DNA of 64,000 nucleotides from Spirosoma profusum (lineage in GTDB: Bacteria > Bacteroidota > Bacteroidia > Cytophagales > Spirosomataceae): the NCBI RefSeq assembly GCF_014699005.1, contig NZ_JACWZY010000006.1, positions 248,001-312,000 on the forward strand. Reading direction: 5' to 3'. The notes beneath the pieces are model-generated. The model saw only the letters and a program-made list of their open reading frames with translations. It was not told the origin of the DNA and searched no databases. Positions 47,464 to 50,164 of the stretch are shown here, piece after piece. The number at the start of each line of letters is the position of its first letter. The stretch's first letter is position 1. The position numbers and the translations under genes were made by a program.

Positions 47464-48393
47464 ATGCAATCACAGGCTACTTCCCGTATTTTAATGATTC
47501 GTCCGGTTCGATTCGGTTTTAACGACCAAACAGCCGAATCGAACGCATTTCAGGATATTAAACTGGCTGCGCAAACGAAGGATGTCGCCCAGGAGGACGC
47601 CCTGCGTGAGTTCGATGAAATGACGCGTAACCTACAGGCACTGGGAGTCGACGTTATGGTGTATGAAGATACCGTAGACCCTTATACGCCCGATTCGATT
47701 TTTCCGAATAACTGGGTTTCGTTTCACGCCAGCGGAACGGTCGTACTTTATCCGATGCAGGCCGAAAACCGCCGGCTCGAACGTCGACAGGATATTATTG
47801 ATGACTTGAGCAAACGATTCCACGTTGCCAGAATTATCGACCTGACGCATTTTGAGCAGGAGGGTAAATTTCTGGAAGGAACGGGCAGCCTGGTTCTTGA
47901 TCGAATGAACCGCGTGGCATTTGCCAGCCTGTCGCCCCGAACGCATCCTGACGTACTGGCTGAGTTTGGCCGTCAGACGGGCTACCGAACCGTATCATTT
48001 ACGTCTGCTGATGCCAACGGACAGGCCATCTATCACACCAACGTATTGATGTGCATTGCCGATACGTTTGCGGTGGTGTGTCTTTCAGCCATTACTGATC
48101 CCGATGAGCGACTGATGATACGTCAGGAACTGGAAAGTCTGGGCAAGCGAGTTATTGATATTTCGCTGGAACAAATGACTAATTTCGCCGGTAATATGCT
48201 GATGATCAAGACTCGGAAAGGGCAGAAGTTGCTGGTGATGTCGGATCGCGCATTCGAATCCCTAACGCCTAAACAAATCGATTTACTGGATGATTACACT
48301 ACGTTAATCCATTTCGATCTGTCGATGATTGAGGGCAACGGTGGAGGTTCTGCCCGTTGCATGTTAGCCGAAGTTCACTTACCGAGGAAATAG
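47464..48393 (+). CDS. ctlX: CtlX-like citrulline/arginine hydrolase
   Basis: A 309-aa pentein-fold protein resembling the CtlX group (annotated elsewhere as citrulline utilisation hydrolase). Motifs: MIRPVRFGFNDQTAESNAFQ, SIFPNNWVSFH, EGTGSLVLDRMNRVAF, ITDPDERLMIRQELE, and the C-terminal nucleophile C299 in GNGGGSARCMLAEVHLP. Two guanidine-modifying enzymes in a row suggest a shared arginine/citrulline catabolic step (inference). A hairpin at 48409-48464 follows the stop. Confidence 0.82.
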   Translation: MQSQATSRILMIRPVRFGFNDQTAESNAFQDIKLAAQTKDVAQEDALREFDEMTRNLQALGVDVMVYEDTVDPYTPDSIFPNNWVSFHASGTVVLYPMQAENRRLERRQDIIDDLSKRFHVARIIDLTHFEQEGKFLEGTGSLVLDRMNRVAFASLSPRTHPDVLAEFGRQTGYRTVSFTSADANGQAIYHTNVLMCIADTFAVVCLSAITDPDERLMIRQELESLGKRVIDISLEQMTNFAGNMLMIKTRKGQKLLVMSDRAFESLTPKQIDLLDDYTTLIHFDLSMIEGNGGGSARCMLAEVHLPRK

Positions 48394-48492: not shown

Positions 48493-48527
48493 TTTGTTTG
48501 CACATACAAATATCATTCTTACCTTTG
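48493..48527 (+). promoter_or_regulatory. marR promoter with overlapping near-palindromic operator
   Basis: The 17-mer TTTGTTTGCACATACAA (48493-48509) has the symmetry TTGTnTGnnCAnACAA. Its internal TTG (48498-48500) and TACCTTTG (48520-48527) are spaced 19 bp, an ideal Bacteroidota promoter, so the operator covers the -33 element. An identical 17-mer lies at 49036-49052. Confidence 0.8.
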
Positions 48528-48552
48528 TTGCCGAAGTACGAGAGGAAACGTA

Positions 48553-49020
48553 ATGGATAACGTAACAACGAGTACAATTACTGAGGTCAAAACCTCAAAA
48601 TCGCGTTACAGTGCTTGCCTGCTTTTCTCAGCCAACGCACTATCAAGAGCCATCACCGCGATTGGCGACGAGGAATTTGGACGGTTTGGATTATGCTATT
48701 CACATGCATACATGCTATGTGAAGTGGTAGAGCAACCTGGTATAACGCCCTCAGAATTAAGTGGAACACTTTGTCTGACCCCGTCGACTATAACACGTTT
48801 GGTCGAAAAACTCGAGCAGAAACGCCTTGTTCGTCGGGAGTCGGAAGGGAAGAAAACCCTGATTTATCCAACGGCTGAAGGAGAAGCAATTCAGCCAGAA
48901 ATTGCCCAGGCATGGGATCGGGTAGGAGCAAGGTATTCGCAGGTGCTTGGCGAAACGTCTGTTTGTCAGTTAACGAAGCAGGTTTTCAGCGCAGCTAAAG
49001 CATTGGGCGGAGGTATTTAA
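48553..49020 (+). CDS. MarR family transcriptional regulator
   Basis: A 155-aa MarR-type dimeric repressor. The winged HTH is at about residues 55-115, with PGITPSELSGTLCLTPSTITRLVEKLEQKRLVRRE and the wing SEGKKTLIYPTAEG. Dimerisation helices flank it (SACLLFSANALSRAITAIG and the C-terminal helix). MarR proteins usually repress their own operon and dissociate on ligand or oxidant binding. Two cysteines (C17-like in YSACLLF and C60-like in GTLCLTP) could sense oxidants (inference). It has an operator on its promoter and before the next gene. Confidence 0.92.
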   Translation: MDNVTTSTITEVKTSKSRYSACLLFSANALSRAITAIGDEEFGRFGLCYSHAYMLCEVVEQPGITPSELSGTLCLTPSTITRLVEKLEQKRLVRRESEGKKTLIYPTAEGEAIQPEIAQAWDRVGARYSQVLGETSVCQLTKQVFSAAKALGGGI

Positions 49021-49035
49021 AAATTTTCACAAGAA

Positions 49036-49052
49036 TTTGTTTGCACATACAA
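49036..49052 (+). promoter_or_regulatory. Second copy of the 17-bp marR operator
   Basis: TTTGTTTGCACATACAA, identical to 48493-48509, lies in the 45-bp gap between the marR stop and the 71-aa gene, 13 bp before its ATG. No good -7 box follows, so it may regulate elongation or an unusual promoter. Confidence 0.7.
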
Positions 49053-49065
49053 CAAACCAATAGCC

Positions 49066-49281
49066 ATGAAAACGAAAGAGGAAACAGTAGGATTAGTAGC
49101 TGGCAAAGCCACGAACGCAACGAAAGATATCTGCCGCTTACTGGCTAAAGAGGGCATCTCGGCTATTGTTGTGCAGAAAGATGAACATCCAGTTACTGTC
49201 GAAGAAACAGTTATCGAACAGCAATGGTCGGGTCAACCGGGCAAAGATTTGTTCTTCAATGGCTGGAAACTGCTTTTTTAA
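49066..49281 (+). CDS. Small conserved-looking protein in the marR operon
   Basis: A 71-aa soluble protein, MKTKEETVGLVAGKATNATK onwards, ending DLFFNGWKLLF. It reads as a mixed alpha/beta protein (KDICRLLAKEGISAIVVQKD, VEETVIEQQWSGQPGKD) without signal peptide or membrane segment. I do not recognise the family. It follows marR by 45 bp and a copy of the marR operator sits immediately before it, so it is probably the regulated target. A terminator follows at 49334. The association with an operator and the codon use suggest it is a real gene. Confidence 0.72.
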   Translation: MKTKEETVGLVAGKATNATKDICRLLAKEGISAIVVQKDEHPVTVEETVIEQQWSGQPGKDLFFNGWKLLF

Positions 49282-49333: not shown

Positions 49334-49360
49334 AAGTGCCCATTTCGGGCACTTTTTATT
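49334..49360 (+). terminator. Terminator of the marR unit
   Basis: AAGTGCCC (49334-49341) and GGGCACTT (49347-49354), followed by TTTATTTT. Confidence 0.9.
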
Positions 49361-49447
49361 TTCACTACGTTCATCTGTTTAGGCAACGTTTTTCAGAGAA
49401 TATGCATCATTGCCTATATTGATTCCTATTAATGATCGCCTTACATT

Positions 49448-50164
49448 ATGAAAATCAGCATCCTTACCTTCGCACTTGCCTTAATTGGATTTCAGATTGC
49501 TTCTGCCCAGGATGAGATTGTGGGCAATGGCGAGATTGTAAAACAACAGCGAACCATCAGCTCGTTTACCAAACTGAACGTACGAATCGGTACACGGGTA
49601 CGTATCGTTTCGGGTGATGCTACAAAAGCAGAATTGGAAGGCGAAAGCAACATTCTCGAACACGTAATAACCGATGTAAAAAACGGCGAACTGACCGTAA
49701 TGCTGAACAATCACAAGCGCTTTAAGCAAACGAAAGGCGTAACAGTTACCATACACGTAGCAAAATTAGATCGGGCGATGGTCAGCACAGGCAGCTCAAT
49801 TCAATCAGAACTGCCGATTCAGGCCGATCAACTGACACTTGTCGTGGAAACAGGAAGCCGAATGACAGCTACAGTTTCGGCCAAAACGCTGGACTTAACT
49901 GTGCGGGATGGCTCACGGGCCACTTTACAGGGTAACGTAGCAGAAGCCGATATCAACCTATCAGGTGCAGGCAATCTGAATGCAGAGAAGTTGACCGTTG
50001 CTCGTTCAGAAGTGAAATTGGACGGCGCCAGCCATGCTGATATTCACGTAACGGAATCTCTAGCTGCCTCTGCTGATGGGGTTAGTACGCTGACTTATAG
50101 CGGTAATCCAACCGTCAAATCGCAGGAAGTATCGGGCTTGTCAAAAATCAGGAAACGCGGGTAA
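49448..50164 (+). CDS. DUF2807 (head GIN domain) secreted protein
   Basis: A 238-aa exported protein with a signal peptide (MKISILTFALALIGFQIASAQ). The rest is a right-handed beta-helix-like DUF2807 domain: FTKLNVRIGTRVRIVSGD, LTVMLNNHKRFKQTKGVTVTI and repeated short strands such as ADINLSGAGNLNAEKLTVA. DUF2807 proteins are typical of Bacteroidota and are secreted or periplasmic; function unknown. Convergent with the beta-barrel gene at 50247. Confidence 0.87.
   Translation: MKISILTFALALIGFQIASAQDEIVGNGEIVKQQRTISSFTKLNVRIGTRVRIVSGDATKAELEGESNILEHVITDVKNGELTVMLNNHKRFKQTKGVTVTIHVAKLDRAMVSTGSSIQSELPIQADQLTLVVETGSRMTATVSAKTLDLTVRDGSRATLQGNVAEADINLSGAGNLNAEKLTVARSEVKLDGASHADIHVTESLAASADGVSTLTYSGNPTVKSQEVSGLSKIRKRG

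Follow-up and report, generated by a model that had tools for sequence, protein, structure and literature searches.

Two near-identical sites around a Spirosoma marR gene are predicted operators of the regulator encoded between them

Identical copies of a 17-bp near-palindrome, TTTGTTTGCACATACAA, lie on either side of a gene for a MarR-family regulator in Spirosoma profusum, one (O1) on the marR promoter and the other (O2) between marR and a small gene encoding 71 amino acids (the 71-aa gene). The explanation that we favor, to which we assign a probability of roughly 0.62 as a whole, is that O1 and O2 are operators of the MarR protein encoded between them, with promoter occlusion at O1 and a roadblock to transcription at O2. 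The DNA analyzed (the window) is a stretch of 64 kb, bases 248001-312000 of contig NZ_JACWZY010000006.1 in a genome of 8,731,341 bases, and the features concerned are the following.

47464-48393: DDAH-type hydrolase gene (PF19420), before marR.
48493..48509, + strand: predicted operator O1 (core 16-mer 48494-48509), an exact 17-mer overlapping the marR promoter at its -33 element.
48497..48500, + strand: -33 element TTTG, inside O1, with 19-21 bp to TAnnTTTG in 36/39 loci.
48510..48513, + strand: ATAT beside O1, each base kept in 30-33 of 34 Spirosoma loci and not kept at O2.
48520..48527, + strand: marR promoter -7 element, TACCTTTG, a TAnnTTTG motif in 36/39 loci.
48553..49020, + strand: marR, a winged-helix regulator of 155 aa (PF01047, E 2.3e-8, above cut-off).
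49021..49035, + strand: A/T-rich tract from the marR stop to O2, by eye A/T-rich in most aligned Spirosoma loci.
49036..49052, + strand: predicted operator O2 (core 16-mer 49037-49052), an exact 17-mer separating marR from the 71-aa gene.
49066..49281, + strand: 71-aa gene, with 39 homologues, an invariant Cys23, and a nearly invariant C-terminal tail.
49334..49362, + strand: intrinsic terminator AAGTGCCC-ATTTC-GGGCACTT, then T-rich, 3' of the 71-aa gene.
49448-50164: DUF2807 gene, after the terminator.

Both 17-mer copies are exact, as an earlier, sequence-only reading of this DNA had stated, and its remark that the window holds no other copy is borne out by the absence of a third from the 64 kb at up to 3 mismatches. 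The window alone provides modest evidence for the pair, because 3 of 100 shuffled windows contain two or more matches when 3 mismatches are allowed (mean, 0.27 matches). The genome is more informative: TTGTNTGNNCANACAA occurs only at O1 and O2, and the same pattern written backwards has no match. The 17-mer is rare genome-wide and tied to the marR orthologue, rather than frequent and unlinked to such genes. Allowing up to 2 mismatches gives 7 sites in all in this genome, versus 12 for the reversed control pattern; we therefore reject a wider regulon, of which none shows, and the circuit is apparently that of a single operon.

Conservation among relatives extends this picture. An orthologue of marR (E up to 1e-15) is present in 57 of 222 genomes of the family, representing 7 genera, and the 71-aa gene is present in 39, representing 4 genera. 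Within Spirosoma, marR and the 71-aa gene are found in the same 34 of 36 genomes, the two genomes having neither being incomplete assemblies (82% and 71%), and MarR is encoded in all 32 of the well-assembled Spirosoma genomes searched. At up to 1 mismatch to TTGYTTGCACATACAA, each of the 34 genomes has two sites at the locus (68 by tally), with 8 sites elsewhere in Spirosoma genomes, all with one mismatch, compared with 15 for the reversed control. The exact 16-mer occurs 51 times in the 222 family genomes, 50 of them beside marR (tally) and the remaining one in genome G154. When related marR promoters are compared, the site is retained at the same place: among the 39 loci with the 71-aa gene, O1 is within 1 mismatch of the 16-mer in 36 and O2 within 2 mismatches in 35, at 9-21 bp 5' of the 71-aa gene ATG. 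The O1 site of Arsenicibacter (G083) is poor, with 4 mismatches. Farther afield, 390 genomes drawn from the order include 21 with the 71-aa gene, all within this family, and a pattern scan of 84,980 species genomes, which detects only copies keeping the scanned peptides, finds 21 loci with the gene, all of them in Spirosoma, Fibrisoma, Arsenicibacter, or Rudanella.

These data bear on one alternative, that the repeat arose by chance or is a functionless remnant of a mobile element. Finding a 17-mer twice within 64 kb is not by itself highly unusual, as the shuffled windows illustrate, but the 68 conserved sites lie in varying flanks, and synonymous positions in the adjacent coding sequence are strongly diverged (pS 0.7-0.9). 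Conservation refutes this reading, and we regard it as exceedingly improbable.

The promoter geometry claimed earlier is as described, with TTTG at 48497-48500 separated by 19 bp from TACCTTTG at 48520-48527. The -7 consensus TAnnTTTG is known from flavobacteria (PMC9723704), and among the 39 loci only G030, G192, and G193 lack it 19-21 bp after O1. The near-palindromic site in the marR promoter, which is of the Bacteroidota type, thus sits on the -33 box, and this position, together with the rarity of the sites and their tie to marR, supports the earlier prediction of MarR autorepression; we consider autorepression through O1 to be likely. A MarR dimer on O1 would cover the -33 box and exclude RNA polymerase from the sole recognizable promoter. 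We reject the idea that both sites serve as RNA hairpins, since O1 lies upstream of the start and hence would be untranscribed from its own promoter.

The role of O2 is less straightforward. Control of the small gene had also been predicted, and this stands insofar as a conserved O2 precedes the gene, but a recognizable promoter is missing there: TAnnTTTG follows O2 in 0/39 loci, and is present between 80 bp before O2 and the 71-aa gene ATG in just 1/39. The sole consensus promoter precedes marR, and O2 is placed after marR. Because TAnnTTTG follows O2 in none of the loci, we reject O2 as the -33 operator of a second promoter, and a role within the operon, as a roadblock or an auxiliary operator, is more likely. 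The 71-aa gene would most likely be read from the marR transcript, and MarR bound as a dimer at O2, which lies downstream of the start, would halt the elongating polymerase. The 71-aa gene, along with the oxidoreductase gene behind it in many relatives, would then be shut more tightly than marR itself, until a signal frees MarR from both sites; thiol stress or a small molecule is the probable trigger. We consider it about as likely as not that O2 acts mainly as a roadblock.

Two other roles for O2 were weighed. First, the 71-aa gene could have a promoter of its own, of a type other than TAnnTTTG and directly repressed via O2, and the placement of O2 at 9-21 bp before the ATG in 39 loci would fit an operator at a start site; the A/T-rich tract preceding it is also in favor of such a promoter. 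The scarcity of TAnnTTTG motifs around O2 and the switches in O2 orientation (see below) argue against such a promoter, and we consider it unlikely. Second, a dimer bound at O1 and another at O2, some 540 bp away, could join in a DNA loop that represses the promoter, with O2 as the auxiliary site. The lac operon has main and auxiliary operators of this kind, including a second, near-identical one a few hundred bp inside the operon, although O2 lies between genes and not within one. The sites are near-identical, an A/T-rich tract adjoins O2, and the O1-O2 distance is nearly fixed, at 531-564 bp in the 34 loci where both sites are good and 531-545 bp in 31 of these. However, this distance is mostly set by the length of marR, and the spacings of 531-564 bp fall at almost every helical phase (modulo 10.5 bp), phasing being minor at such a length. 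Moreover, MarR proteins are usually dimers and, to our knowledge, are not known as tetramers. We find looping rather doubtful, and less likely than a roadblock as the function of O2.

The composition of the sites provides further insight. The dyad proposed earlier, TTGTnTGnnCAnACAA, is real, with 6 of 8 pairs matching by inspection, but its four "n" bases are not free. With all sites read in one orientation, positions 5, 8, 9, and 12 of Spirosoma O1 are T (34/34), C (33/34), A (34/34), and T (34/34), and those of O2 are T (34/34), C (34/34), A (33/34), and T (34/34). The freest of the 16 positions is position 4 (T or C at O1; T, C, or G at O2), followed by position 13 at O2 (A in 31, G in 3). 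Because position 4 varies, the earlier consensus with a fixed T there misses sites such as TTGCTTGCACATACAA; that pattern, in which position 4 is constrained and four almost unvarying positions are left open, has 49 of its 60 Spirosoma sites at the marR locus (tally). The kept asymmetric bases exceed the needs of a plain symmetric dimer site, and this counts against our best explanation. In Spirosoma, the axis of the 16-mer scores 6.2 (O1) and 6.0 (O2) of 9 pairs, and an axis 2 bp further on scores 5.7 and 5.0; in Rudanella, the axis 2 bp further on scores 7.5 (O1) and 7.0 (O2), versus 4.5 and 4.5 for the 16-mer axis. The true dyad axis may therefore lie 2 bp further on, with a recognized core resembling TTTGYAYRTRCAAA.

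The orientations of the two sites also differ in behavior. O1 has a single orientation in all 36 close matches, which is constant because the -33 overlap demands it. Of the O2 sites in the 37 loci scored (2 were not), 20 are forward and 17 reverse, the two forms differing at positions 5, 8, 9, and 12. The marR tree needs at least two changes of O2 orientation, and in these the whole 16-mer is inverted, asymmetric bases included; none of the 34 Spirosoma O2 sites is mixed at positions 5 and 12. One center base is changed in the O2 site of locus L018, and likewise in one O1 site (L072). Inversion of the whole of O2 could have arisen through template switching between its arms, by analogy with events described for yeast inverted-repeat spacers (PMC8604942).

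The two sites change together. In Rudanella genomes G192 and G193, O1 has moved 3 bases and O2 4 bases from the Spirosoma 16-mer, and the likeness of O1 to O2 is 15/16 in G192, G193, and G195, and 13 in G194, the last being equalled by 1 of 20 shuffles in one test and 0 of 10 in another. An unbiased pair test, in which the best 16-mer match is sought between the 130 bp before marR and the 80 bp after it, gives the 39 loci with the 71-aa gene scores of 16 (21 loci), 15 (12), 14 (4), and 13 (2), so that 37/39 score at least 14; shuffle maxima were 12-13, with one 14. One of the loci scoring 13 (L068) is not above its shuffles, yet its O1 is the exact 16-mer. Among 18 loci without an intact 71-aa gene, 16 score 10-12, within the shuffle range, and the remaining two are from Rudanella G194 and G195 (scores, 13 and 15). 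In three sister genera (designated g10, g22, and g36), the same test finds no matching site pair in 16/16 loci. Because scores are high with the 71-aa gene and at shuffle level in 16 of the 18 loci without it, we conclude that the site pair goes with the gene; O2 accompanies the 71-aa gene or, in two Rudanella genomes, its loss or damage. In G194 an NmrA-like gene directly follows O2. In G195 (locus L090) the 71-aa gene is without most of its N-terminal half and the frame of the tail is broken, damage that is possibly an assembly fault, the assembly being 71% complete.

The co-change in Rudanella, together with the conservation, strongly supports the idea that one protein reads both sites, and that this protein is MarR appears highly probable. 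Regulators often bind their own promoters. Conservation of the sites alone does not name the protein, and they could bind some other regulator, the marR neighborhood being incidental. Against this stand that habit of regulators, the tie of 50 of 51 exact sites to this marR, and the joint drift of the site pairs in Rudanella, and we consider another regulator very unlikely.

By its sequence, the encoded protein is a MarR-family winged-helix regulator. It matches PF01047 with 34.2 bits (cut-off, 24.6) and PF12802 with 32.2 (cut-off, 27), and a PDB profile search aligns it with solved MarR structures (for example, 1lj9, 5hli, and 4hbl) at E 2e-12 to 5e-10, indicating the same winged-helix fold as SlyA and other solved MarR-family proteins. 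The predicted fold of a MarR-small protein read-through fusion has the helices and wing, with block means of >80 for residues 41-120. None of the named NCBIfam MarR subfamilies (OhrR, HpaR, MarR, BilQ, and others) scores above its cut-off, the closest match being BilQ (29.2 bits; cut-off, 125), with OhrR at 23 bits (cut-off, 200). Cys22 of MarR is invariant in 57/57 orthologues. In the profile search, in which the OhrR chain 1z91 is also a hit, it aligns two residues before the Cys of 5hli; this MarR is therefore no more than a candidate one-Cys redox sensor of the AbfR or OhrR type, in which the sensing Cys lies in the first helix.

The 71-aa gene encodes a real protein. Its pN/pS is 0.39 in the N-terminal part, 0.72 in the linker, and 0.075 in the last 20 columns (the tail), and invariant residues in 39/39 members are M1, K2, C23, G56, P58, G59, D61, F63, F64, N65, W67, K68, L69, and F71. 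Across the 39 homologues, the last 16 codons (49231-49278; window version, GQPGKDLFFNGWKLLF) are almost invariant apart from free synonymous change. The protein belongs to no known family in the libraries searched: Pfam gives no credible match for the window protein or the 39-member set (best E, 0.016), and no NCBIfam match of the protein reaches its cut-off. The N-terminal part (49066-49191) weakly resembles the start of a short-chain dehydrogenase/reductase (SDR), with the nucleotide-binding glycines lost, a likeness also suggested by a structural model. SDR enzymes have the motifs TGxxxGxG and YxxxK. The SDR family PF00106 is matched by 2/39 members (best E, 0.028), the window protein not being listed. 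With the PDB profile of the whole 71-aa family, the best E is 0.072, to the first beta-alpha-beta of SDR chains, and when only the N-terminal part is used the top two chains are again SDR enzymes (E 0.011-0.012), but matched over a different stretch of the enzyme (residues 163-179), which counts against the resemblance; the tail alone has no PDB profile match at E up to 10. An hhalign comparison with an SDR alignment gives E 2.8e-4 over 35 columns, with 0.053 for NmrA-like proteins and 0.25 for the MarR control. Foldseek searches with a model of the 71-aa protein (mean pLDDT, 66) return 179 matches at E up to 10 and none at E up to 0.001, and in the fusion fold the block means of the small part are 60 or less (low confidence). 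SDR membership is not supported, as no profile is above cut-off and the TGxxxGxG glycines are absent from the window protein; a partial SDR origin of the N-terminal part is a lead only.

The gene following the 71-aa gene is changeable, and may be NmrA-like, SDR-like, of DUF2807 type, or on the opposite strand. Of the 38 loci with visible sequence, 15 have a same-strand NmrA-like gene in this place, 9 have an SDR-like gene no more than 300 bp away, and one more carries an SDR-like gene of another kind; in the window, the terminator is followed by DUF2807. For these downstream genes, Pfam was run on three proteins and the rest were assigned by their first residues. The NmrA- and SDR-like neighbors point loosely to the handling of some reactive compound. 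The stretches preceding two T runs in the terminator region fold with energies of -10.3 and -13.1 kcal/mol. Because a terminator follows it in the window, we reject the idea that the 71-aa gene in general encodes a leader or arrest peptide acting on a downstream gene. On the other side, a gene sharing its start with the DDAH-type hydrolase of the window lies before marR in g10, g22, g36, Fibrisoma, and Rudanella G195 (16 loci listed), and not in G192, G083, or G194. Because the DDAH-type gene precedes marR in other genera, the neighborhood seems older than the 71-aa gene. In g22 (L080-L088), a conserved palindrome of the type WTGATTGYRCAATCAY is located about 23-32 bp after the marR stop and before an SDR-like gene in 9/9 genomes; it is unmatched in the region before marR and therefore is different from the two-site layout.

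Parts of the proposed mechanism have counterparts elsewhere. The MarR-type regulators GbsR and OpcR of Bacillus subtilis act by promoter occlusion and roadblock, one blocking the promoter (-35 region) and one acting downstream of the start, and on opuB their effects are additive (PMC7396694). As that system is described, two proteins share the task, whereas in Spirosoma a single one would perform both actions on the operon that encodes it, and the roadblock would come after its own gene. In Pseudomonas aeruginosa, the C-terminal part of ArmR, a protein of 53 aa, binds in the cavity of MexR, a MarR-family protein (PMC6018408). The likeness lies in the combination of a MarR-family autorepressor with a small protein whose C terminus is important, but ArmR expression is described as being under NalC, a TetR repressor, and not under MarR-protein operators (PMC6018408), and the 71-aa family has no convincing sequence link to any solved chain (best E, 0.072 for the whole and 0.011 for the N-terminal part). 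By this analogy, the small protein might be an ArmR-like antirepressor, which is a guess. A more elaborate scheme is a closed single-locus switch in which the MarR regulon is one operon, O1 limits MarR, and O2 holds back the small protein, which through its Cys and tail would bind the same MarR and lift it off the DNA in mutual feedback and would sense thiol or quinone stress; we view this as distinctly unlikely.

No work on MarR operators or the MarR family in Spirosoma was found in the open-access literature searched, outside which most subscription papers lie. The circuit is orderly and apparently confined to one operon, unusual in having an operator inside that operon and accompanied by a small partner gene that belongs to no known family. 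For Spirosoma, it offers a testable operator and a one-operon regulon for MarR, in a phylum whose promoters are of a distinct type. Operator evolution is usefully illustrated by the O2 16-mer, which has been inverted in at least two lineages, and the 71-aa protein, retained alongside the site pair in four genera, is a promising candidate for a new regulatory partner or stress protein. With one site at the promoter and the other within the operon, the layout would provide a clean natural example of a single repressor that works by two mechanisms.
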